From assembly GCA_020726285.1 (NCBI GenBank), contig DYSW01000001.1, forward strand, positions 62,001-126,000: a DNA stretch of 64,000 nt. Reading direction: 5' to 3'. The DNA is from Melioribacter roseus. GTDB taxonomy: Bacteria > Bacteroidota > Ignavibacteria > Ignavibacteriales > Melioribacteraceae. Made by a program: the position numbers and the translations under genes. The notes below the pieces were generated by a model. That model was not told the origin of the DNA, searched no databases, and was given only the letters and a program-made list of their open reading frames with translations. Shown here piece after piece: positions 2,836 to 50,893 of this stretch (within the stretch, counting starts at the first letter, position 1; every line of letters starts with the position of its first letter).

Positions 2836-2866
2836 AAAACCTCCGTTTTTACGGAGGTTTTTTTAT
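2836..2866. terminator. Bidirectional rho-independent terminator between convergent genes
   Basis: AAAACCTCCG (2836-2845) and CGGAGGTTTT (2852-2861) form a perfect 10-bp stem around a 6-nt loop, with T-rich sequence downstream and A-rich sequence upstream. It lies between the rightward citrate synthase and the leftward HhH-protein gene and can serve both. Confidence 0.92.
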
Positions 2867-4815
2867 AGCATTAATTCAATTTGAAAAGTAATCTTTTCGT
2901 CAGAATTACTTTGAATTTCAGATAAACCACTTCCTAATGTTTTTTCAAATGGCTTGTTGTATTGTGAATATTTTAGATTAAATTTTACAAAATCTAAAGG
3001 TTGATATTTTATAAGGCAATAAAATTGGAAACCGTTTCCGTATAACAATTTATTTGTGAACATCCCATCAATTTCATTCTCATATAAATATATTCGTGTT
3101 TCGTAATTTTCTGTTTGAAAATATGCTAATTGTAGATAGGTTTTTAGAAAATCATTTAGATTAAACTGAAAATCCTGAGAAATAGCATACCCTGTTTGAA
3201 TATCATTTAATTCTGTAAATTGGACGAAATCAAATTGTGTTTTCGTTTGGACTACTTTTTTTTTGAATTTCAGCCAAAAACGCAATTTTTCTGTATGCTC
3301 ATCTTCCAATTCTTGCAAATTATCAGTTACATTATCTGTTAAAACTTGCTTGGTTTCTCGTTTATACTTTATATATAACTGAAGATTTTTGAAAGTATTG
3401 GAAGTAAAATCAATCAAAATATCCTTTCCAGATGAAGAAAATGTAGATGTTTCAGGAATAGTAGGAAAAGTGAAAAAATCATAGTAGAAACAAATTTTTC
3501 CCAAAAAGAATGAGTAAGCAAATCCGTTATAAAATCCAATTTCATTATTGGTGTTGGAATTTTCTCCAAAACCCTGTGCAAAAAGTAGATAATAATCCGA
3601 AGAATAATTTCTAAATGTTGAAATTAATGACAAACTATTCTCAATCTGAAATTTGATTGAGTGAATTTGTGCGAAATTAGTAAAATCTGTAGCAATTTCA
3701 GATGAATAATACAATTTTCCAAACATAATTTTATTTGTAACTGAAGCATATTGAGCGGAATTTCCTATAAAATTACTTGTTGTCTTGTTAAGTAAATCAG
3801 AAGAAAAATGCTGTTGAAAATAGATTCCAGCCAAATAAAAATTCTCAGATTTAAATTCAAGGACAGCACTTTTTGTGATAATTTTCAAATTATCGTGTTT
3901 CGCAATTTCGTTATTTGTTCGGTGGTAACCTGATGTTGAGATTGACGAAAATTGGTTGTTATCAATTGAGGCATCGTAATTATTTGATGAAATTATGCCT
4001 GAAAGTGAAGTTTTTTCCCAATTTAATGTTGTGGCAAAACCACGAAAAAAGGAATTTTCATCAGAACTTGAATATGATGATAAAATCTCTGATTTTTTAT
4101 TTACCGAGAGAACATTGCTACTTTTTGCAGATGAAAACGAAGACGAAATAAGCAAACCTTCTCCAAAATTGATTGAAAAATCACCAATTATTATTTTTTG
4201 AAGTAAATTTTCGCCCAAATAGCAAACATTTCCACTTACAAAATCCGAATAATTCTTCTCGCCAACATCTTTTTCAGACAAAAAATTAATAAAATAAATG
4301 CTGTTTAGATTTCCTTTTATTCGGGAATAAGTTTTTAGTTTATTTCCCAAAAAGATATTTGAATCTATTCCAACTTGATTTTCATTCTGGAATACAATTC
4401 TATTTCTCATTTGAGCTGAAAATTGAATTTCTTCCATCTCGTCCTTCGGCATTTTTGCAACAATTCTGAAAAATGGAATTAACATTTTCAATTTTGTTGG
4501 TGAAACCGAAGTTTGATAAAGAAAATCGAAATTCACAATCTTTTGTTCATTTTTGATAGAAATTATTATTTCTGAAATGTCTTGAATTGTTAAAAATGGA
4601 AAGAGAGATAGTTCTTCGAATGAAACATTGGAAATATTAATCTTATTTTCGTAAATATTTTCAAAATATTCGTACAATTTTGTGTTGTCAATTTCATCGC
4701 TTGCGGAATTTTCAACCAAATATCTTATCAATTCATCTTTCGAGATTATATTTTCATTTTGTGCAAAAATTTGCGAAATGATGAGAAAAACAATCATAAA
4801 TGATAAATATTTCAT
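2863..4815 (-). CDS. Secreted helix-hairpin-helix (ComEA-like) protein with probable C-terminal outer-membrane beta-barrel
   Basis: A 650-residue protein with a signal peptide (about residues 1-18, ending IFAQ). A region near 55-115 has the ComEA-like helix-hairpin-helix pattern: NISNVSFEELSLFPFL, a helix, then VNFDFLYQ. The remaining ~530 residues are rich in short alternating hydrophobic/polar strands with Phe, Tyr, Ser and Asn, as in outer-membrane beta-barrels, and the C-terminus ends in a strand (ITFQIELML). HhH domains usually bind DNA; in secreted Bacteroidota proteins of this layout the function is not established to my knowledge. The start overlaps the stop of the PorV/Q-like gene by 4 bp (ATGA), so the two are translationally coupled. 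Confidence 0.75.
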   Translation of the reverse strand: MKYLSFMIVFLIISQIFAQNENIISKDELIRYLVENSASDEIDNTKLYEYFENIYENKINISNVSFEELSLFPFLTIQDISEIIISIKNEQKIVNFDFLYQTSVSPTKLKMLIPFFRIVAKMPKDEMEEIQFSAQMRNRIVFQNENQVGIDSNIFLGNKLKTYSRIKGNLNSIYFINFLSEKDVGEKNYSDFVSGNVCYLGENLLQKIIIGDFSINFGEGLLISSSFSSAKSSNVLSVNKKSEILSSYSSSDENSFFRGFATTLNWEKTSLSGIISSNNYDASIDNNQFSSISTSGYHRTNNEIAKHDNLKIITKSAVLEFKSENFYLAGIYFQQHFSSDLLNKTTSNFIGNSAQYASVTNKIMFGKLYYSSEIATDFTNFAQIHSIKFQIENSLSLISTFRNYSSDYYLLFAQGFGENSNTNNEIGFYNGFAYSFFLGKICFYYDFFTFPTIPETSTFSSSGKDILIDFTSNTFKNLQLYIKYKRETKQVLTDNVTDNLQELEDEHTEKLRFWLKFKKKVVQTKTQFDFVQFTELNDIQTGYAISQDFQFNLNDFLKTYLQLAYFQTENYETRIYLYENEIDGMFTNKLLYGNGFQFYCLIKYQPLDFVKFNLKYSQYNKPFEKTLGSGLSEIQSNSDEKITFQIELML

Positions 4816-5633
4816 TTTATTAACAAATTTTCAATTTCAATTGAGATTGCGAATTGATGTGTTTCAGATAAATATAGGTTTGTAAAAATTGCATAATCTA
4901 ATCGAATATGTAAATAATTTATTCCAATTCCAGCCGAGTATGAATTCGGTTCAGTTTTTGCCCCGATTCTTAAATTTAAGAAGGTAAGTGGCGAATAATC
5001 AACTCCGAATTTTGCAGAAATTGGAAAATCAAACTCCTTTTCTAATGACGTAGAAATGAAAATTTGTTCAAATGGTTTGTAAGCAAAACCTAAATTATAA
5101 ATTACAGGAACTTGATTATCAGTGTTTTTGTAAGAGGAATTGGTTAAGTTCTCAAGATTAAAACCAAAACTTAAGTTCTTTACAATATTTGTTAAAAACC
5201 CAAAATTCAAGAGAAAAACTGCGGAATTACCGTAATTTTTGATATTTACGAAACGAATTACAGGTGAAATGCCAAGAAAAATATCTTCGGAAATTTCCTT
5301 TGAAATTGAAATATTAAAAGAATTTTCACGATATAAATCGTAGCCGTAGGTTGAAATTCCAAAACCAACTTGTGAAAATCCAAAATCATAATTTGTGGAA
5401 AAATTTCCATTAGCCATTTCGCGAATTCCAAACGGTGATGGAGAATAAAAAAAGGAAATTTCAGAATTCTTCAGAAGTGAAATTCCTGCAGAGTTGTAAA
5501 AAATTGCGTTAGAATTATTGGGAATTGCGACAGTGGAATTTGCAAGTGAAATTTCTCTTGCAGAGGGTTTTACTTGTGAAAAATTATTTTGGTAAATTAT
5601 GAAAATCAATATAAAAAGTGCTTTAGCCCGCAT
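4812..5633 (-). CDS. PorV/PorQ-like outer-membrane barrel protein
   Basis: A 273-residue protein with a signal peptide (cleavage near NNFSQ, residue 19). Its N-terminus (SAREISLANSTVAIPNN, then NAIFYNSAGIS) matches the start of FadL-fold PorV/PorQ proteins, where a small-residue helix is followed by an Asn-rich plug and an NPAG-like turn. The rest is beta-strand rich. In T9SS, PorV shuttles cargo from SprA and PorQ is part of the attachment complex; with its position next to porD-sprA-porX, a T9SS accessory role is a reasonable inference. It is shorter than typical PorV (about 390 aa) or PorQ (about 340 aa). First gene of a leftward two-gene operon, divergent from porD. Confidence 0.6.
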   Translation of the reverse strand: MRAKALFILIFIIYQNNFSQVKPSAREISLANSTVAIPNNSNAIFYNSAGISLLKNSEISFFYSPSPFGIREMANGNFSTNYDFGFSQVGFGISTYGYDLYRENSFNISISKEISEDIFLGISPVIRFVNIKNYGNSAVFLLNFGFLTNIVKNLSFGFNLENLTNSSYKNTDNQVPVIYNLGFAYKPFEQIFISTSLEKEFDFPISAKFGVDYSPLTFLNLRIGAKTEPNSYSAGIGINYLHIRLDYAIFTNLYLSETHQFAISIEIENLLIK

Positions 5634-5759
5634 TTTTTTCTCGAATTATTGAAAAAAATCTTATTATTATTATGATAGTTAAATAAACATTAAAAGAAGA
5701 ACTAATGAAATTTATAAAAAATTTTGAAAATCAATAAAAATTTCTTTCTAAGGAAAAAA

Positions 5760-6662
5760 ATGAAAAAATATCTTTTTATTGTTTTACTGATTTTGAATGC
5801 AAGTTTTGTGTTTTCCCAAGAACTTAATGCTCGCGTTTCTGTTAATGCCGACCAAATTTCCACAAAGTACAAAGAAAAATTAGTTAATTTTCAACGTGAA
5901 GTAGAGGCATATCTAAATACAACAAAATTTACTTCTGAAAATTGGGAAGGTGAAAAGATAAATTGTGCTTTCGATATTTTTATTACTTCAGCAGGAAATG
6001 AAATTAGTTATGCTGCACAAGTAGTTGTTACAAGTAATAGACCTATTTATAAAAGTCCCGTAAGTTCTTTGATGTTAAAATTGATGGACAAGGAATGGAA
6101 ATTTGATTACGAACCAAATCAACCTTTTATTTTCGATTTTTATAATTTTAACGGATTAACAAGTTTTATGGATTTTTATGCACTTGTAATAATTGGTGTT
6201 GATGCAGATTCGTTTGAACCGTTTGGCGGAAATACACATTTTTCTAAAGCAATTGAATTAGCAGTTTTAGGCTCAAATTCGGCTTATTCAGCTTCAGGTT
6301 GGCAAATCAGAAGTTCAAGCTACAACAGAAGAGTATTTGTAAACGAATATATGGAAACGAAATTGCAGCAATTCCGTGATGATTTCTATAATTATCATTA
6401 TAATGGTTTGGATTTATTGAATAGCGGAGAAAAGTATAAATTGCAAGGACAAGCACAGATTGTAAAATTGGTTGAAAATATTAGCAAAAGCCAATTATTA
6501 TCAGTTTCGGGCAATTCTGTTTTACGTACTTTTTTTGAAAGCAAAGCTGGAGAAATAATAAATTCTCTTTCAGATTATCCAGATAAAAATATTTTTAGAC
6601 TTTTACTTAAATTAGACCCAAGCAATACTGATAAATATATCAAGGTAATTGAAGAATTATAA
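5760..6662 (+). CDS. porD: T9SS-associated protein PorD (DUF4835 family)
   Basis: A 300-residue secreted protein with a clear signal peptide (MKKYLFIVLLILNASFVFSQ) starting at an ATG preceded by AAGGA; a longer TTG-initiated frame exists at 5724 but lacks these signals. Sequence features match DUF4835: a QELNARVSVN start, WEGEKINCAF, a central PFGGNTHFSKAI segment and a C-terminal helical region. The family is often annotated PorD and co-occurs with type IX secretion; its biochemical role is unclear. It lies directly upstream of sprA, in the same direction. Confidence 0.8.
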   Translation: MKKYLFIVLLILNASFVFSQELNARVSVNADQISTKYKEKLVNFQREVEAYLNTTKFTSENWEGEKINCAFDIFITSAGNEISYAAQVVVTSNRPIYKSPVSSLMLKLMDKEWKFDYEPNQPFIFDFYNFNGLTSFMDFYALVIIGVDADSFEPFGGNTHFSKAIELAVLGSNSAYSASGWQIRSSSYNRRVFVNEYMETKLQQFRDDFYNYHYNGLDLLNSGEKYKLQGQAQIVKLVENISKSQLLSVSGNSVLRTFFESKAGEIINSLSDYPDKNIFRLLLKLDPSNTDKYIKVIEEL

Positions 6663-13495: not shown

Positions 13496-15061
13496 ATGGA
13501 AAAACAAAGAATTCTTTGGATAGATGACGAGATCGAATTACTAAAATCGCACGTAATATTTTTAACAGAAAAAGGTTACGAAGTTGAAACAGTTACAAAC
13601 GGAGAAGATGGAATATTTAAAGTACGAGAAAAGGAATTTGACATAATTTTTCTTGATGAAATGATGCCGGGACTTGGCGGTTTGGCAACACTTTCGCAAA
13701 TCAAAGAAATCAAACCAAATATTCCAATCGTAATGGTTACAAAAAATGAAGAAGAATCGTTAATGAATGACGCAATTGGAAGCAAAATAAACGATTATCT
13801 TATTAAACCCGTCGTTCCATCTCAAATGTTAATGGCTTGTAAAAAGATATTAGACATAAAAGCAATCTCAAAGGAATACATTAAAAAAGATTATATGTCG
13901 GAATTCAACCGAATTACAATGAAATTAATGTCGGATAATGATTGGTTAGATTGGATTTCAATTTATAAAAGTTTAGTTAGTTGGGATTTGGAATTGGATG
14001 AACACCCAGAAATTGGTTTACGACAAACTTTGCAGGAACAATTTCGTGAAGCGAATAAAGAATTTTCAAAATACGTTGAAAAGAATTACTTAAAATGGAT
14101 CGAAAATCCCAGAAATGCACCGATTTTAAGTCCATTTGTTTTCCAAAACTTTGTGCTACCTGAACTCGAAAATCCTGAGGGTCCCATTTTTTATTTTGTG
14201 CTTGATTGTATGCGATTAGATCAATGGCATATTATTGAAAGAAATATTTTTGATTTGTTCAATATTCATAAAGATTACTACTTTTCTATGTTGCCAACTG
14301 CTACACCATATTCAAGAAATGCCCTTTTTTCAGGTCTTTATCCTTCAGAAATCGAGAAAAAATATCCAGAATATTGGGTAACGAGGAGTGAAAATGAAAA
14401 TCAGCTGAATAAATTTGAAAAAGAATTGCTCGATTTAATGCTGAATCGACATAAAGTTACTTTGAAAAATGAGTTAAAATATCTAAAAATCATTGATCCA
14501 GCAGTCGGAAGAGCCTTTGCACAAAACGTAAATTCGCATTCTAAAACAAGTTTTATGGCGGTTGTGTTAAATTTTTTAGATATGATTGTTCATAGCCGTT
14601 CTGATTCTGTAGTGCTAAAAGAAATTGCTCCGGATGAGGCTGCCTTTCGTTCATTAACTGAAAGCTGGTTTAAACATTCTTCTTTGCTCACAATTTTTCA
14701 AGTAATTTCAAAAATGCCAAATGCTAAAATAATTCTCACAACTGATCACGGAAGTATTCTTACAAAACGCGGTGCAAAAGTTTTAGGTGACAAAGAAGCA
14801 GCTAAAAATCTTCGATTTAAGTACGGAAGAAACCTTAAAACTGACGATAAAAATGCGATGTACATTAAAAATCCTTTAGAATATAAATTGCCTGAATTAA
14901 GTGTAACAACAAGCTATATTATTGCAAAAGAAGATTATTTTTTTGTTTATCCTACCGATTATCACAAATTTTTGAATTACTACAAAGATACTTTTCAACA
15001 CGGTGGAATTTCGATGGAAGAAATGATTTTGCCAATTGTAATTTTAGAGAGTAAAGTATAG
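13496..15061 (+). CDS. porX: T9SS response regulator PorX (receiver plus PglZ phosphodiesterase domain)
   Basis: A 521-residue protein with an N-terminal receiver domain: acidic D10/D11, phospho-acceptor D54 in FLDEMMPG, T82 and K104 in YLIKP. A helical linker follows, then a C-terminal PglZ/alkaline-phosphatase-fold domain (VLDCMRLDQW from about 235, LPTAT at 266-270, TTDHGS, a late HGG motif). This is the PorX architecture. In Porphyromonas and Flavobacterium PorX works with the sensor PorY and an ECF sigma factor to control T9SS genes, and its PglZ domain has phosphodiesterase activity. It follows sprA by 8 bp. No porY or sigP is in the window. Confidence 0.92.
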   Translation: MEKQRILWIDDEIELLKSHVIFLTEKGYEVETVTNGEDGIFKVREKEFDIIFLDEMMPGLGGLATLSQIKEIKPNIPIVMVTKNEEESLMNDAIGSKINDYLIKPVVPSQMLMACKKILDIKAISKEYIKKDYMSEFNRITMKLMSDNDWLDWISIYKSLVSWDLELDEHPEIGLRQTLQEQFREANKEFSKYVEKNYLKWIENPRNAPILSPFVFQNFVLPELENPEGPIFYFVLDCMRLDQWHIIERNIFDLFNIHKDYYFSMLPTATPYSRNALFSGLYPSEIEKKYPEYWVTRSENENQLNKFEKELLDLMLNRHKVTLKNELKYLKIIDPAVGRAFAQNVNSHSKTSFMAVVLNFLDMIVHSRSDSVVLKEIAPDEAAFRSLTESWFKHSSLLTIFQVISKMPNAKIILTTDHGSILTKRGAKVLGDKEAAKNLRFKYGRNLKTDDKNAMYIKNPLEYKLPELSVTTSYIIAKEDYFFVYPTDYHKFLNYYKDTFQHGGISMEEMILPIVILESKV

Positions 15062-15580: not shown

Positions 15581-15638
15581 AGTTTTGTTCATTATTTATT
15601 TACTAACAAACAATCCAAAAATTCTTATAGGAGGATTT

Positions 15639-16727
15639 ATGAAAAAACTATTTTCCATCCTTGCAGTTGTAGTTATGATGGGATTTATGAGTAACTTATT
15701 TGCACAAATTTCGTATTCAGGTGGAGTTGAATTTGGTCCAAGATACGATATGAAAAATTTTGGTGATTACTCCGGAACAAACTCCAAAGATGTTTATTAC
15801 ATGTTAAAATCGTCATTCAATATTGACGCAAATATTGGTGATGGTTGGTATGGTAAAGTACAACTCGGACATTATGGTTATGCAGGTGCTACATGGACAA
15901 ATGACGCTACTGCAAATACTGGAAGTTCAGTTTTTAAAAATGATCTTATAGTACGCCCAACAGTTAACTTTAACCAAATGTTTTTAGGTTATAAAACTGA
16001 AAATTGGGGATTTGAAGCTGGTATTATTCCAGTAAATGCTATAGCAAATCCAATGTTTGATATTCATTATTTACCAAGTGATATGGTTGACATTCCTTTT
16101 GCCGTTTTCAGATTGAACAGTTTAACTGGAGCAAAAGCTTGGGTTAATGCTGGTCCTGGCAAATTAAATGTGTTAGTTTCAAAAGATGATAATGAAACTT
16201 ATTTAGAATCAAATCCTTCAGGAGATGTAACTTCAGATTTGCATGATATTTACACATTCAATTTTGATTATGATTTCAACCTAATGGGTTTCGGTATTCA
16301 ACCTGCATTATTTTATACTTATGCAAGTGAATCTATCGCTGCTCCTATGACTTATGGTGTTAATTTAACTACTCCTAAATTTGCTGGTTTTGGTTTTGGT
16401 TTTAGCTATGCTATGACTTCAAATACAGTAGACGGAACATCACAATATGATGGTAATTTGATGAGAGTTAAAGCAATGGGAAAAATTGGTCCTGGGTCTT
16501 TAACTGCTTGGTATGATATGGCAAACAGAGCAGATGATCCTGATGGTTCAAACGTTGAACATGCTTATAGCTATATACACGTTCAATATGCTGTAGAACT
16601 CTATAAAGGCGATAATGGTTCAGTTTCAATTATGCCACGTTGGAGATATACTACAGACGTTGTTGATGAAGCAAAAGATTATTCACGTCATAAATTTGAA
16701 TTATTTGTAATGTCTTCGTTCAAATAA
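15639..16727 (+). CDS. Outer-membrane porin-like beta-barrel protein
   Basis: A 362-residue protein starting at an ATG with a perfect AGGAGG 4 nt upstream; a longer upstream frame (15585) lacks these signals. It has a signal peptide (MKKLFSILAVVVMMGFMSNL, cleaved near FAQ) and a mature part of alternating strands with aromatic girdles, Gly/Asn/Asp-rich turns and no recognisable enzyme motif, as expected for a monomeric or trimeric porin. Substrate unknown. The strong ribosome site, own promoter, 5' stem-loop and own terminator suggest a highly expressed monocistronic envelope protein. Confidence 0.75.
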   Translation: MKKLFSILAVVVMMGFMSNLFAQISYSGGVEFGPRYDMKNFGDYSGTNSKDVYYMLKSSFNIDANIGDGWYGKVQLGHYGYAGATWTNDATANTGSSVFKNDLIVRPTVNFNQMFLGYKTENWGFEAGIIPVNAIANPMFDIHYLPSDMVDIPFAVFRLNSLTGAKAWVNAGPGKLNVLVSKDDNETYLESNPSGDVTSDLHDIYTFNFDYDFNLMGFGIQPALFYTYASESIAAPMTYGVNLTTPKFAGFGFGFSYAMTSNTVDGTSQYDGNLMRVKAMGKIGPGSLTAWYDMANRADDPDGSNVEHAYSYIHVQYAVELYKGDNGSVSIMPRWRYTTDVVDEAKDYSRHKFELFVMSSFK

Positions 16728-21890: not shown

Positions 21891-23438
21891 ATGCTTAATT
21901 ATATTTGGTTTTTACTTATTTCAGTTGGAATTATCTTTGCAATAGCAACAGATTCTTCTGATATTGCAAATAATAAATATGGAAGTCAGCAAGTTGTAGC
22001 TTGCAATTATCTTGATTCATCAAAAACTCACATCAAATTTATAAAATCCAAGAATTCATTCATTACCAAAATACCATCAGATTCATTGGAATATCAAATA
22101 AATTCAATCTCCAAATTGAATTTATCAATTAAAATTGATGAAAACTCCTCACATTTATTTAAGGAAATTGCTAAGTCAAATGGAACAAGTGCATTACTAA
22201 ATCTTGAAATAGTAAAAATAAAGTCAAATAACACAATCTTGGTAAAATTTCCTAAAACTTCATTTTTAGCAACAAAAGATGTTACAAATTCAGTGGTTGA
22301 ATCTTCAAAATCGGCAGTAAATATTGCACTTGGTTTAATTGGAATTATGACTTTGTGGCTTGGAATTATGAAAATTGCAGAAAAATCTGGCTTGATTTTA
22401 ACAATTTCAAAAGGAATTAAGCCGATTACAGATTTTCTTTTTCCCGAAGTTCCACAAGGTCATCCAGCACTTGCATCTATGATAATGAATATTTCTGCAA
22501 ATATGTTAGGTTTAGGAAATGCAGCAACTCCTTTTGGATTAAAAGCAATGGAAGAACTTCAAAAACTAAATCCAGAAAAGGAAACAGCTTCAAATTCAAT
22601 GTGTACTTTTCTCGCAATCAACACATCGGGACTTACATTAATTCCTGCAACAGCAATTGCAATTCGGGCAGCTCAAGGCAGTGCAAACCCAACAATTATT
22701 ATCGGAACTTCATTTATTGCCGCATTTGCCGCGACTTTTGTCGGTGTTTTTGTAGCGAAAATTTTCGAGTATTTCTCGACTAAAAAATCCAAACAAAAAA
22801 TATCATTTCCCGTTGCTTCAGTAATTAAAATATCAATGATAATTGCAATATTAATTTCAATTACCGTGTTTACAATTCAATTTATTGGCAATTATCTTTC
22901 TTCATTTTTTATAGATTTTGTTTCCATTATTTCACTTTTGGCCATCCCAATATTAATTCTATTCTTTGTAACATTTGGAATGATTAAAAATGTAAAGATT
23001 TATGAAGAATTTGTTGATGGAGCCAAAGAAGGATTTAATGTAGCAATTAGAATTATTCCTTATTTGGTTGGTATGATTGTGGCAATTTCAATTTTTAGAG
23101 CGGGCGGTGGAATGGATTTATTTGTTACAATATTTTCACCAATTACGAATTTAGTTGGATTTCCTGCCGAAGTTTTACCGATGGCGTTAATGCGTCCACT
23201 TTCAGGAAGTGGTTCTCTAGCTTTAATGTCGGAAATGATGGCGAAATATGGCGTTGATTCCTTTTTTGGTGTTCTTTCTTCAACAATAATGGGAAGTACA
23301 GAAACAACTTTTTATGTTTTAGCTGTTTATTTTGGGTCAGTTGGAATTAGAAAAACTCGTCACGCAGTTATTGCAGGAATTTCAGCAGACATTACAGGAA
23401 TTTTAACTGCTCTTTTAGTAGTAAAAATGCTGTTTTAA
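21891..23438 (+). CDS. Nucleoside-recognition (Gate) membrane protein, SpmA-SpmB fusion
   Basis: A 515-residue polytopic membrane protein. The first helix (LNYIWFLLISVGIIFAIAT) and the block starting near residue 136 (IALGLIGIMTLWLGIMKIAEKSG) match spore maturation protein A; the second half (residues ~330-515, ending ADITGILTALLVVKML) matches SpmB. Gate motifs include NISANMLGLGNAATPFG and MRPLSGSGS. Between helix 1 and the SpmA body there is an extra ~100-residue polar segment (about 30-130), probably periplasmic. SpmA/B fusions occur in non-sporulating bacteria; their transport substrate is unknown. No RBS of note. Converges with comF with a 4-bp overlap. Confidence 0.88.
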   Translation: MLNYIWFLLISVGIIFAIATDSSDIANNKYGSQQVVACNYLDSSKTHIKFIKSKNSFITKIPSDSLEYQINSISKLNLSIKIDENSSHLFKEIAKSNGTSALLNLEIVKIKSNNTILVKFPKTSFLATKDVTNSVVESSKSAVNIALGLIGIMTLWLGIMKIAEKSGLILTISKGIKPITDFLFPEVPQGHPALASMIMNISANMLGLGNAATPFGLKAMEELQKLNPEKETASNSMCTFLAINTSGLTLIPATAIAIRAAQGSANPTIIIGTSFIAAFAATFVGVFVAKIFEYFSTKKSKQKISFPVASVIKISMIIAILISITVFTIQFIGNYLSSFFIDFVSIISLLAIPILILFFVTFGMIKNVKIYEEFVDGAKEGFNVAIRIIPYLVGMIVAISIFRAGGGMDLFVTIFSPITNLVGFPAEVLPMALMRPLSGSGSLALMSEMMAKYGVDSFFGVLSSTIMGSTETTFYVLAVYFGSVGIRKTRHAVIAGISADITGILTALLVVKMLF

Positions 23439-24151
23439 TCACTTTTGTTTGCCAACAACGGAATTGCGATTGAAATCAAATAAACTGCTTTCACTTCATT
23501 TTCAAATAATTTCTTCGCAATTTCACTTGTGGTCGACCCAGTTGTTACAACATCATCCACTATTGCAAAAATTTTCCCTTTAATTTGATTATGATTTTTA
23601 ATTTTAAATGCGTTTTCCACATTCAGTTTTCTGTCGTGCAAATTTAAATGTGTTTGCGTTTCAGTGTATTTTATTCTTTTTACAAAATTATTTTTGATTT
23701 TAATTCCAGAAATTTTGCTAATCCCTTTTGAAATCCAATATGATTGATTGTAACCTCTTTCTGCTTGCTTAATTGGATGAAGCGGAACTGGAATTAGGAA
23801 ATCAATTTTGGCATCTATTAACTGCTTTCTATATTTCTCTGCAATTATTTCACCAAAAAACTCTCCTATTCTGATTTTATTTGAGTATTTCAATTTATGA
23901 ATCAGATCTTTAATTTCTTGGGATTCGTAAAAATTAAAAAGGGAATAGAAATTTGTGAAATTTAGAAAAAGTGATTTTGTGTGGAATTTGTTTTCGAGAA
24001 GTGTAGAATCAATAAATTGGAATTTAGAAAGGCAATTATTACAAATAACATTTTCAGTGGAAGAGAGTGGAATTTCGCAAACTTCACATTCTCTTCCAAT
24101 AAAAAAATCAGAAAAATCTGACCAAAATTTATTTAATCTTTTAAGCAACAC
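23435..24151 (-). CDS. comF: ComF family phosphoribosyltransferase-like protein
   Basis: A 238-residue ComF protein: an N-terminal zinc-ribbon-like CEVC...CNNC region (residues ~19-38), a central GYNQSYWISKGIS segment and the PRPP-binding loop IVDDVVTTGSTT near residue 198. ComF is required for natural DNA uptake in Bacillus and Haemophilus, probably on the cytoplasmic side; many bacteria keep it without known competence. Last gene of the leftward surE run; its start overlaps the hemerythrin stop by 11 bp. Confidence 0.92.
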   Translation of the reverse strand: MLLKRLNKFWSDFSDFFIGRECEVCEIPLSSTENVICNNCLSKFQFIDSTLLENKFHTKSLFLNFTNFYSLFNFYESQEIKDLIHKLKYSNKIRIGEFFGEIIAEKYRKQLIDAKIDFLIPVPLHPIKQAERGYNQSYWISKGISKISGIKIKNNFVKRIKYTETQTHLNLHDRKLNVENAFKIKNHNQIKGKIFAIVDDVVTTGSTTSEIAKKLFENEVKAVYLISIAIPLLANKSD

Positions 24152-24558: not shown

Positions 24559-26652
24559 TTATAGTAAATTCTTTCGTTTTCTTAAAAACCATTCAAAAGA
24601 AAAAGCAAAAATAACAAAAATCAGTAGAAATTCATTTGGAAAAATCCGAATGTTATTTTCAAGAATCACCAATTTCGGCTTTTGCTTTTCCGACAGATAA
24701 TCATTTATATTGAATTGGTTTAATGTTGTAAATTTTCCATTAGTTAATTGAGCTATAAGTTGTAAATAGTTGTAATTGATTGTTAAATTCTGCATCTCAA
24801 TATTTTCTTGCAAAACCAAAATTTCTAACGATTTATTTAACGAGTCATTTTCAGAAATTGCTTGAAAATTGATTGTATGTTTGCCTGGAGTTACATTTTC
24901 CAATTCAATTTGAAAATTGCCCTTTTGCTTTTCAATAATCCTGAAATTAGTTACTAAGTTATTGTCAATCAACAATTTAATTCGGTGGTTATCACTCGGT
25001 TGTTGCAATTGGTTTATCACAGAAAGATTGAAAATTACGGTTTCATTTTGTGAAATTATAGGTTTTTGAGAATTCACCATCAAACGATTTTTTTTACTAT
25101 CTGTAATTAACCATTTTGCTAGGTTACCAAAAAAAGTATCAAAATAAATCCCATTTTCTAGGGAAGATTGCATTTTCCAACGCCAAATTTCCGAAGCATA
25201 AAAATATGCTCTGTTATTTAAGTTATTTTGGGATATTTCTAAAATTGGGAATGTATTTTGTCCATTTTGCGAGTAAATCAGAATGTTTGGATTTACATTT
25301 TGCGAAAATGAATTCAAATTTACTGGCGGAAAACTTGAAAGAAAATTTTTGTTTTGTAGGTTAATTCCATCAAAAATTGGGTGATTTTGAACCGAAGTAA
25401 TTTGGACATTGGGAAAGTCTATCAATTTCTGTTTAGATGGAAAATCGTTAACGAGAGTTTGCAATTTCTGTAAATCTGTAAAATTTGTAAATTGAATAAA
25501 AGCAGATTTGTTTGCAGCAAGTTCGCTAACTTGTTTTACAATTTGATTTGAAACTTCTTTTGTTGGAAAATTTACAAAAAACATAGCGTTTGCTTCAGAA
25601 ATCAGCTTATTCTGTTCGGGAGTTAGTTGAGTTTGGTTGAATTTCACAAAAATTGAGTTTACACTTAATGTGGAATCTTTTTGCAAACTTTGTTTAATGA
25701 AAGACAAATCAAAATTTGGCGAAGATGTAATTAGCAAAATTTGTCGTTTACTTTTTTCAATTTCAATCGGTGCAAAATACAAATTGTCAGTGTAAGTTAA
25801 TTCTTCTGGAATTTTACTTATTTCGATGCTTAAATTTGAAATTCCAGCATTCTTTGGGCGAACATCAAAATTAAATTCACCAATTTCATTTGCTTGTAAG
25901 TTTACATTTTTATTGAATAATTTTTCTTTTCCTAAATTCACAAAAATTAAAAATGATTGATTTTGGTTGGAATTGTTAAAAATTCGAGCATTTATTGGGT
26001 TATTTTTATTTTGCAAAAAAGTGTGATTATGAGTTACAGAAACAATTTCGAGGTTAGTTTTTAATTTTTCATTTCCAGAAGCAATTACATTAATTTTAAT
26101 TGGAATTTCTGCAAATTCAGATTTTGGGATTTTCCCATCATTTGCAATTCCATCAGAAAAAATGAAAATATTCTCGATTTCAGTTCCATTATTTCTGAGA
26201 AATTCATAGATATTCCAAAAATTTGTACTTTTTGAACTAAAATTTGGTAAGAGATTATTTCCATTTATCGCAGATAAAGTATCGCCAAAAAAGATGAACT
26301 GATTTTCATAATTATTAAAATTTTGAAATTCAGAGATGATTTGATTTATTTTTTTTGAGATACGAGAACTATCAGAATTTACAATTGAAGCTGAATTATC
26401 AATAAAAATTAGGTTTTTTGGTTTTTGCTCAAACTGAGAAAGAAAAACAATTCTTGCATTTGCCAAAAGAATAACAATTGACGAAATTGCGATAAATCTA
26501 ATAAAAACAAGAAGATATCGTAAATTATTTGAGATTTTTGGAATTGTAAAACGATAATAATAAATCGAAAATCCTAACGAAAGCAAAATCCCAATTATTA
26601 CCCAAATTGCGTGAAAATCGAATTCAATCCAAATTTTAGAAAAATTAAACAT
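24559..26652 (-). CDS. Membrane-anchored protein with vWA-like domain
   Basis: A 697-residue membrane protein. Two N-terminal helices (about 15-33 and 44-70) are followed by a von Willebrand factor A-like domain starting NLIFIDNSAS, a D-x-S-x-S MIDAS motif, and later FIFSDGIAND. A long extracytoplasmic Ig-like/beta-rich stretch follows (Asn and Phe rich), and a single helix closes the protein (FLLIFVIFAFSFEWFLRKR). The layout resembles BatA-like or glutamine-amidotransferase-like membrane proteins common in Bacteroidota; no precise function can be given. It lies 2 bp after surE. Confidence 0.72.
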   Translation of the reverse strand: MFNFSKIWIEFDFHAIWVIIGILLSLGFSIYYYRFTIPKISNNLRYLLVFIRFIAISSIVILLANARIVFLSQFEQKPKNLIFIDNSASIVNSDSSRISKKINQIISEFQNFNNYENQFIFFGDTLSAINGNNLLPNFSSKSTNFWNIYEFLRNNGTEIENIFIFSDGIANDGKIPKSEFAEIPIKINVIASGNEKLKTNLEIVSVTHNHTFLQNKNNPINARIFNNSNQNQSFLIFVNLGKEKLFNKNVNLQANEIGEFNFDVRPKNAGISNLSIEISKIPEELTYTDNLYFAPIEIEKSKRQILLITSSPNFDLSFIKQSLQKDSTLSVNSIFVKFNQTQLTPEQNKLISEANAMFFVNFPTKEVSNQIVKQVSELAANKSAFIQFTNFTDLQKLQTLVNDFPSKQKLIDFPNVQITSVQNHPIFDGINLQNKNFLSSFPPVNLNSFSQNVNPNILIYSQNGQNTFPILEISQNNLNNRAYFYASEIWRWKMQSSLENGIYFDTFFGNLAKWLITDSKKNRLMVNSQKPIISQNETVIFNLSVINQLQQPSDNHRIKLLIDNNLVTNFRIIEKQKGNFQIELENVTPGKHTINFQAISENDSLNKSLEILVLQENIEMQNLTINYNYLQLIAQLTNGKFTTLNQFNINDYLSEKQKPKLVILENNIRIFPNEFLLIFVIFAFSFEWFLRKRKNLL

Positions 26653-49587: not shown

Positions 49588-49648
49588 TTTGGATAATCGG
49601 ATTTATTGTAATATATTCTATTGTTAACTCAAAAATCATGGAGTGAAA

Positions 49649-50893
49649 ATGGTGAAAAAATCACTAACTATCATCGTTTCTGCTATAATTATTAGCGGAA
49701 ACATTTTTGCAAGCGGTTTTCAGATAAATGAACACGCTGCAAGAGCAATGGCAATGGGAGGTGCATTTACAGCAGTAGCAAACGATGCTTCAGCTGCAAT
49801 GTTTAACCCCGCTGCAGTAACGCAACTTAAGGGAACACATATTTCTGCTGGCGTTACATTAATTAAACCTTATGCTACATTCCGAGGCGTTACGCCTGAT
49901 GTCGATGAATACAGCGTTCACGATGCTCTTTTTACCCCAATCAACCTTCACGTTACTCACCAGATTTCTGAAGATTTGTATTCTAGTTTTAGTCTTACAA
50001 ATCCATTTGGTCTTGGTACAACTTGGGATGATGATTGGATAGGGAAATATCTTGCTGTTGAAACTGAAGTTAGAACATTCTTCTTCGGTGGAAATCTTGC
50101 GTATAAACTAACTGAAAATTTTTCTGTCGCAGCAGGCGTTAATGTTGCATACGGAGATGTTATCATTAGAAAATTCGCACCACTTCCTGACCCATTAACT
50201 GGTGATATTGAACTTACTTTGGAAGGAGATGCAGTCTCTTATGGTTATAATCTTTCAATGTTTTATATTCATCCTAAAAATGATTATACAGTTGGTGTGT
50301 CTTTTAGAAGTAACTCAACATTCGATTTTGAAGGCGAAGCCACAAGTGTTGGCCCAGCCCAATTAGATGGTCGACTTCCTGCTGGAAACATTACAGCTAC
50401 TTTGGTAACACCATACAATTTGCAAATGGGAATGAGCTTCTTCCCAATTGAAAATCTTAGAACAGCTTTCGATTTTCAATGGGTTGGTTGGTCAAGTTAC
50501 GATAAATTGGCAGTTGATTTTGAAGACGAAGCACAAGAAGATGTTAGTGCCGCAAGAGATTATCAAGATTCTTGGATAATGAGAACAGGTTTTGAATATA
50601 TATGCAACGAATCTTTGGATTTAAGATGGGGAATTTTCCTTGATAGAAATCCAGTGAAAAATGAAATGGTTGAACCTTCATTACCAGATTCAGATAGATT
50701 AGGTTTTAATGCTGGATTTGGGTATAAATTCTTTGGAAATCAAAGCATTGATCTTGCCTATATGTATATACGATTTTTTGAAAGAACTGTTACCGGAGCA
50801 GAAAGCTATTATACAAGCGGTAATTCATCATTTGATGGAACTTACAATTCTTATGCTCATCTTTTGGCAATTAACTATTCATATAAATTCTAA
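49649..50893 (+). CDS. OmpP1/FadL family outer-membrane transport protein
   Basis: A 414-residue FadL-type barrel: signal peptide, then SGFQINEHAARAMAMGGAFTA and NDASAAMFNPAAVTQL, the N-terminal plug and NPA motif of the FadL/toluene-transporter family. The rest is a beta-barrel ending in an aromatic YSYKF strand. It imports hydrophobic molecules such as fatty acids. ATG 49649 is preceded by GGAG. The next gene is an SGNH hydrolase lipoprotein, a recurrent pairing in Bacteroidota. Upstream lies only a weak promoter-like TTTG-N20-TATATTCT (49588-49619). Confidence 0.93.
   Translation: MVKKSLTIIVSAIIISGNIFASGFQINEHAARAMAMGGAFTAVANDASAAMFNPAAVTQLKGTHISAGVTLIKPYATFRGVTPDVDEYSVHDALFTPINLHVTHQISEDLYSSFSLTNPFGLGTTWDDDWIGKYLAVETEVRTFFFGGNLAYKLTENFSVAAGVNVAYGDVIIRKFAPLPDPLTGDIELTLEGDAVSYGYNLSMFYIHPKNDYTVGVSFRSNSTFDFEGEATSVGPAQLDGRLPAGNITATLVTPYNLQMGMSFFPIENLRTAFDFQWVGWSSYDKLAVDFEDEAQEDVSAARDYQDSWIMRTGFEYICNESLDLRWGIFLDRNPVKNEMVEPSLPDSDRLGFNAGFGYKFFGNQSIDLAYMYIRFFERTVTGAESYYTSGNSSFDGTYNSYAHLLAINYSYKF

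Follow-up and report, generated by a model that had tools for sequence, protein, structure and literature searches.

Two outer-membrane machines are known in which a large core barrel is joined by a smaller partner of the FadL family. According to the available parts of the respective reports, PorV takes this place beside SprA, the translocon of the type IX secretion system (T9SS), and BamG beside BamA (PMC10994853, PMC12578637, PMC12611786). The T9SS component PorD is described, likewise in partial sources, to bind PorW in Porphyromonas gingivalis, where it is required for full secretion efficiency (PMC8754138), and to be bound to SprE in the Extended Translocon of Flavobacterium johnsoniae (PMC10994853). 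A gene pair adjoining porD and sprA is found in a stretch of 64,000 nucleotides from Melioribacter roseus (assembly GCA_020726285.1, contig DYSW01000001.1, positions 62,001 to 126,000 of the forward strand), which as a whole is termed the window. One gene encodes a predicted exported protein of 650 residues that combines a ComEA-type helix-hairpin-helix (HhH) region with a predicted outer-membrane barrel (the HhH-barrel protein), the other a small PorV/PorQ-like barrel. This pair is real, widespread and, as far as the searches reach, uncharacterised. We propose, at a probability of about 0.5, that its products form a dedicated complex of two outer-membrane barrels, akin to SprA-PorV or BamA-BamG, in which the HhH region would serve as a periplasmic protein-docking module.

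Both barrel proteins were modelled as single chains, the 650-residue protein by AlphaFold2 with a 40-sequence alignment. Its model (mean pLDDT 85, pTM 0.81) comprises a helix at residues 3-15 in the signal-peptide region, helices over residues 26-115 and then about 24 long strands over residues 132-649, as counted from the DSSP line. An earlier note on this DNA had described a signal peptide, an HhH region and a strand-rich part in the protein and had set structure prediction as a test beforehand; the prediction returned a barrel as well as an HhH fold. The fold matches of the barrel are mixed and include OprD-type porins, the ushers FimD/PapC, MtrB and TonB receptors. Among the matches listed, many unrelated barrel families are tied at VIA Z 12.7-15.4, and Foldseek TM scores (query) reach at most 0.39; OprD-type porins score up to Z 15.4 over 271 residues, while in the fold library an usher pore (9fw9_D) matches at Z 14.0 with 371 residues at 3.8 Å and MtrB at Z 12.9 with 382 residues at 4.7 Å. 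Since no match stands out, the model supports a large barrel and nothing narrower. A fold name was accordingly set aside, and the missing family assignment is not evidence for a new fold.

Sequence searches place the large barrel in no described family. A search of solved chains at E 0.1 with a family profile of the barrel part remained negative, and scans of the window protein and relatives revealed neither a Pfam nor an NCBIfam model for the barrel. The window protein has no NCBIfam match, and its sole Pfam match, to a phage tail terminator model (residues 31-84, 21.5 bits, cut-off 27), lies below threshold and N-terminal to the barrel and is taken as a probable chance hit. Matches of the scanned relatives to other models are either to HhH models or single and weak. 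The barrel part carries nearly invariant charged residues, and the protein occurs close to single copy: it is the one match in its own genome, and 50 of 51 positive genomes have one match, the remaining genome having two pieces on one contig. Two genomes harbour additional HhH open frames beyond the HhH-barrel and Tex-like ones, of 657 residues (G101, C33:227206-227382) and 704 residues (G159, C1:1376986-1377165), which are possible paralogues.

The HhH domain is related to that of ComEA, as the earlier note had held. The window protein itself yields no HHH_3 match in Pfam at E<=1, yet HHH_3 (PF12836) matches 36 of the 40 aligned members at this level (best 7e-16), and profile positions 58-118 of the family match the ComEA structures 8dss (2.9e-10) and 8dfk (5.7e-10), so that the homology is genuine. 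The same profile finds Tex at 3.6e-7 and, weakly, PsbU. In a scan of six relatives, the curated ComEA model TIGR01259 scored no higher than 48.1 bits, below its cut-off of 152, and at E<=1 the PsbU and T2SSK_1st models match four and six of the 40 members, respectively.

The further expectation that this domain contacts DNA does not fare as well. In HhH proteins the GhG hairpin motif makes the contact to the DNA backbone. Among 61 family sequences, the second glycine is kept in two (hairpin 1) and five (hairpin 2); for the first glycine, the corresponding numbers are 10 and 32. GIG persists in hairpin 2 of some relatives, L101 and L108 among them. The sequences are acidic towards the N-terminus, with a median net charge of -10 over residues 24-116 (range -16 to -1) and of -2 over residues 60-116 (range -8 to +5). 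A separate ComEA-like open frame of 171 residues with both GIG motifs and a charge of +7 is present in the window's genome. As eight free ComEA-like loci caught by a motif pattern span charges from -3 to +7, charge lends support to the case against DNA binding and does not decide it. PsbU and GspK use an HhH-like fold in protein contacts and are not known for DNA binding. In view of the decayed hairpin glycines, the acidic N-terminal region and the separate ComEA-like protein, the most likely task of the HhH domain is to contact a protein, like its counterparts in PsbU and GspK, and DNA binding appears unlikely; a DNA-binding HhH was set aside on hairpin loss together with acidity. One member (L068:8399-10150, minus strand, genome G007) shows no recognisable HhH pattern in its N-terminal part, and the gene triad is kept at this locus.

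The identity of the small partner as a PorV/Q-like protein is borne out by its fold. The model of the 273-residue protein (pLDDT 88.8) forms a FadL-type barrel of 14 strands, whose closest relatives are PorV and FadL (Z about 30, 2.2-2.4 Å), including PorV of the SprA complex (8gl6_F, Z 30.4, 2.2 Å over 248 residues). FadL-fold chains from entries of the Bacteroidota β-barrel assembly machinery (BAM), presumably BamG, score somewhat lower (9n2d_B at Z 27.1, 9hjm_F, 9hiv_F). At the sequence level, PorV is the sole solved match of the PorV-like profile in a search at E 0.1 (7.3e-5). The protein matches NF033709 at E 1e-15 and 58.2 bits, below the cut-off of 90; four relatives scanned likewise stay under the cut-off, and at 0.001 the model recognises 37 of 39 aligned members.

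The two genes belong together beyond chance, and the coupling proposed in the earlier note is thus supported by synteny as well as co-evolution. All synteny loci were located via a barrel match and comprise those of 40 out of 50 positive relatives plus 20 distant ones chosen for diversity. Within the window's order, 39 of 40 loci (exception L062) keep porD divergent from a PorV-like gene that is followed by the HhH-barrel gene, whereas sprA is adjacent in only two of the 40, both from the window's genus. At the distant loci a PorV-like gene lies within 0.8 kb of the barrel in 10 of 20 cases, and porD is near in eight. With gene starts taken mechanically from the longest open reading frames (ORFs), 42 of 49 pairs overlap or are separated by at most 20 bp, and 10 of them show the 4-bp overlap. 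Every one of the 45 fetched loci with both a PorV-like gene and porD has the two in divergent orientation. A barrel together with a PorV-like gene was also seen at loci L195 and L196, from the range of Chitinophaga and Sphingobacterium relatives. A diverged barrel, barely detected by sequence search, also sits beside porD in families f38 (4/6 genomes) and f27 (2/2). Ten representative wider neighbours scanned in the window's order (metabolic enzymes, GNAT, cyclophilin, an HD-domain protein and DUF123) give no functional hint, nor do those in Chlorobiaceae, which read from their sequence as hisH, hisA, scpB, rluB and Sua5.

Co-evolution was assessed from distances computed as simple log identities. 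Across 45 three-gene loci, the distances of the HhH-barrel and the PorV-like protein correlate at r=0.78, and at 0.74 after PorD is removed. For the 33 of 60 loci with all six genes, an aminotransferase, a GNAT and an epimerase served as background for partial correlation. Under this three-neighbour control the two barrels correlate at 0.84, a value reached by none of 2000 permutations, as compared to 0.02 for the HhH-barrel and PorD and -0.01 for the PorV-like protein and PorD. The correlation persists when six diverged loci are dropped (r=0.60, n=27, 0/1000 permutations) and within the window's family alone (17 loci, r=0.81, 0/1000 permutations). Most of the signal comes from the barrel part: barrel versus PorV-like protein given the N-terminus yields 0.76, N-terminus versus PorV-like protein given the barrel 0.26. 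Judged from these sequence distances, the pattern is what two touching barrels would be expected to give.

The distribution of the system was surveyed in a single sample of 296 genomes from the phylum, using profiles of the HhH-barrel, SprA, the PorV-like protein, ComEC, PorD and secretin; thresholds were our own (strong barrel E <1e-20, PorV-like E <1e-18), and tallies were compiled by hand from the result tables. SprA is found in 229 genomes (228 over the cut-off) and PorD in 228, the same ones except for G307 with its marginal SprA match. The full-length HhH-barrel profile gave 228 strong matches, 63 weak ones and none in five genomes. Because the HhH by itself could account for matches in the range of about 1e-6 to 1e-16, a barrel-only profile was run on 80 genomes, comprising the 68 weak or absent cases, seven intermediate ones and five positive controls. 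It was positive in 19, namely all controls, all intermediate genomes and seven of the 68. The porD regions of 20 of these 68 genomes were read and revealed four further barrels, so that 11 of the 68 moved to present. The final tally is 239 of 296 genomes with the barrel and 57 in which it was not detected, some of which may hold a diverged copy, such as G228 with its unrecognised ORFs beside porD.

The HhH-barrel thus spans most of the Bacteroidota-Chlorobi group and extends to species that lack a T9SS. It is present in 66 of the 67 SprA-less genomes, the exception being G322, which is 88% complete. These 67 consist of all 64 genomes of family f24, two of f46 (G271, G278) and G059 of f20, whose other members have SprA. 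Family f24 likely corresponds to Chlorobiaceae, since a profile based on four members, two of them from f24, found 70 named loci, mostly from Chlorobium, Chlorobaculum and other Chlorobiaceae, with shared neighbours. Conversely, 56 of the 229 SprA-bearing genomes have no detectable barrel, among them all 29 genomes of f28, which we guess to be Flavobacteriaceae. PorD is therefore distributed as expected of a T9SS part and the HhH-barrel is not; the dependence on T9SS implied by the earlier note is not supported, and the spread turned out to be largely unrelated to this system. A PorV-like match accompanies 152 of the 228 strong barrels and occurs in a single one of the 68 weak or absent cases (G148), where a barrel was later found.

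In the two-barrel complex that we prefer, the large barrel would form the core, probably as a conduit or an assembly platform. The PorV/FadL-fold barrel would bind to its side within the bilayer, in the manner of PorV on SprA and BamG on BamA, and the N-terminal HhH-fold domain would lie in the periplasm and dock a protein partner, not DNA. The complex would reside in a T9SS gene neighbourhood with a core independent of T9SS; in genomes devoid of this system the large barrel persists, mostly without the small one. We infer this arrangement, from the contact of the barrels to the side of the HhH and the conduit or assembly role, because of the confident models, the conserved gene order, the co-evolution and co-occurrence of the pair and the precedents of SprA-PorV and BamA-BamG. 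Several observations weigh against it. The best fold matches of the modelled large barrel are generic and name no function, and the correlated distances might also arise without contact if both genes, as one unit, were exchanged or changed their rate together, which is the main alternative. Moreover, a PorV-like match is present in 141 of the 162 genomes with SprA and a strong barrel, but in only 11 of the 66 with a barrel and no SprA. All 11 belong to the 17 genomes of genus g98 in f24 (E 2e-19 to 4e-33), and the profile search saw no PorV-like protein in the 47 genomes of the f24 genus g93, nor in f46 or G059. The partner hence tracks T9SS more than the large barrel does; the two are no obligate pair, and the large barrel can dispense with the small one.

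This loss of the partner would also fit an accessory T9SS component, that is, a second translocon-associated barrel which, together with its own PorV-type shuttle, acts with PorD, SprE and SprA. The porD neighbourhood held across wide distances, the two loci with sprA and the PorV match of the small barrel point the same way. Still, such a role is unlikely: the large barrel is kept in SprA-less genomes under three family labels, where PorD and SprA vanish together, it escapes detection in many SprA-bearing genomes, and neither barrel co-evolves with the adjacent PorD. Term counts in the available portions of the P. gingivalis and F. johnsoniae T9SS papers (PMC8754138, PMC10994853) do not show "helix-hairpin". 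A dedicated T9SS component was set aside on the survey of barrel, SprA and PorD. The generic fold matches could instead indicate a general transporter or porin, in which the HhH is only a plug or linker and the PorV-like pairing incidental. The HhH is unrecognisable in at least one member (L068), and 53 of the 64 f24 genomes lack the partner, G322 among them also lacking a detectable barrel; yet the tight co-evolution of the partner and the conserved order and spacing suggest a specific role, as do the near-single copy number and the nearly invariant charged barrel residues, and we regard a mere porin as improbable. The barrel might also be a DNA-uptake channel, whose periplasmic HhH receives DNA in place of the secretin of type IV pili; this is possible, not favoured, and we consider it about as doubtful as the porin. 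It gains from the genuine kinship of the HhH with ComEA, including relatives that retain GIG in hairpin 2, from the natural transformability of Chlorobaculum tepidum, and from the scarcity of secretins, which occur in 138 of 296 genomes and not in that of the window. Likewise in its favour, the seven genomes of f41, the sole ComEC-less family, have no detectable barrel in any member although SprA and PorD are kept; they represent a single lineage. On the other side stand the lost hairpin glycines and acidic N-terminus, and the free ComEA-like proteins that barrel genomes carry, the window's own with its charge of +7 and both GIG motifs. Moreover, f28 has ComEC in 29 of 29 genomes and no barrel, and G300 from f24, an assembly fragmented into 290 contigs, has the barrel and no ComEC match. 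In addition, transformation of Riemerella anatipestifer depends on other envelope genes, as far as the accessible part of the report tells (PMC8459023). Of the DNA-binding or uptake surface element imagined in the earlier note, the exported HhH on a barrel is thus supported and the contact to DNA is not.

Some further observations concern the competence side. ComEC is found in 288 of the 296 genomes, being absent from G300 and f41 only, and owing to this near-universal occurrence the survey has little power on a competence link. An HHH_3 scan of two of the seven f41 genomes gave no match in one and a borderline match in the other (27.1 bits, cut-off 27), and three scanned f28 genomes have free HhH proteins of about 280-315 residues. 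Near porD, six of the seven f41 regions (L226-L232) contain an unrecognised ORF of 936-1001 residues. The ComEC open frames among the listed matches measure about 800 residues in some families and about 500-720 in others (f25, f28, f35), which perhaps reflects the presence or absence of an extra domain. Complementarity of secretin and barrel was set aside, as no relation was seen by eye in the 296 genomes. RA0C_RS02645 of R. anatipestifer, in which the HhH occupies residues 236-301, appears to be another protein, as far as the accessible part of PMC8459023 shows. Searches for literature on competence in Chlorobaculum found nothing informative.

The features of the locus are compiled in Table 1; their coordinates and the 4-bp gene overlap agree with the earlier note. 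In the window, the pair is transcribed divergently from porD and sprA, and the genome possesses a T9SS, with 44 matches (41 above the cut-off, counted in the result table) to the type IX sorting-domain model.

Table 1. Coordinates of the HhH-barrel pair and of adjoining features in the window
Feature	Position	Strand	Remarks
HhH-barrel gene	2863..4815	minus	650 aa; predicted exported outer-membrane protein
Predicted Sec signal peptide, residues 1-19 (...ISQIFAQ)	4759..4815	minus	no lipobox by eye; predicted cleavage site
ComEA-type HhH region, residues 57-116	4468..4647	minus	PFLT, SVSP instead of GIG
Predicted outer-membrane barrel, residues 130-649, ~24 strands	2869..4428	minus	AlphaFold2 model
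PorV/PorQ-like FadL-fold barrel, 14 strands, 273 aa	4812..5633	minus	4-bp overlap with HhH-barrel gene
Divergent intergenic stretch between PorV-like pair and porD	5634..5723	.	short
porD (DUF4835), T9SS component	5724..6662	plus	NF052317 220.8 bits, cut-off 170
sprA/sov, T9SS translocon, 2220 aa	6825..13487	plus	TIGR04189 958 bits, cut-off 200

Directly 3' of sprA, positions 13496-15061 (plus strand) encode a protein with a response-regulator and a PglZ domain, an architecture known from the T9SS regulator PorX; together with porD and sprA this gene makes up a compact T9SS locus. A FadL/Toluene_X family protein of 416 residues (49643-50893, plus strand, 222 bits) could be a candidate BamG-type subunit of the organism's BAM complex. 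The comF gene mentioned in the earlier note is indeed present (23435-24151, minus strand), the product being a ComF-like phosphoribosyltransferase by its VDDVVTTGST motif, with no Pfam match at 1e-5. ORFs that likewise have no Pfam match at 1e-5 are found at 24559-26652 (minus strand, 697 residues) and 15585-16727 (plus strand, 380 residues).

The HhH-barrel is encoded in 239 of 296 genomes, yet neither a family model nor a description in the literature was found, the latter in a search of open-licence papers. Queries on HhH with SprA returned nothing informative, and those on HhH with PorV yielded no more than a listing of the HhH protein BT3167. The earlier note's notion of an undescribed envelope module accordingly stands within Pfam, NCBIfam and the literature searched, and its T9SS and DNA-uptake framing is not favoured. 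Tentatively, the pair might represent a third machine, beside SprA-PorV and BamA-BamG, in which a large barrel is combined with a FadL-family protein. Such a machine would date back to the ancestor of the Bacteroidota-Chlorobi group and be independent of T9SS; its HhH would have been reused for protein docking, and its client could be a protein, a surface lipoprotein, a polymer or DNA. If the pair is a machine of this kind, this would suggest that outer-membrane machines of the group follow a common design. The case also counsels caution against taking annotations at face value, as "ComEA-like" does not equal DNA binding, nor a T9SS neighbourhood T9SS function. Green sulfur bacteria, which in this sample keep the barrel without SprA and PorD, offer a setting where a T9SS-free function is directly testable.

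In comparison with the known systems, the pair shares with SprA-PorV a large barrel with a 14-strand FadL-fold partner, the small barrel having the PorV fold and a weak sequence similarity to PorV, as well as the adjacent porD and, in the window's genus, sprA. It differs in that its large barrel has about 24 strands, as compared to 36 in SprA (PMC10994853, in the part available), bears an N-terminal HhH, matches no solved chain at 0.1 and persists without SprA or PorD. With BamA-BamG it has in common the arrangement of a FadL-family barrel on a core barrel, as given in the accessible parts of PMC12578637 and PMC12611786, and the FadL-fold chains of BAM match the small barrel. Unlike BamA, however, the HhH-barrel has no POTRA domains and instead about 115 residues of helix and HhH ahead of the barrel, and the profile of the small barrel matches only PorV among solved sequences at 0.1. 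The tandem HhH is homologous to that of ComEA and likewise exported, but most of the second GhG glycines are lost, the N-terminus is acidic and a barrel of about 520 residues is fused to it. PsbU and GspK, finally, show an HhH-like fold, and some HhH-barrel members weakly match the PsbU and T2SSK_1st models; neither of these two proteins is joined to a barrel.

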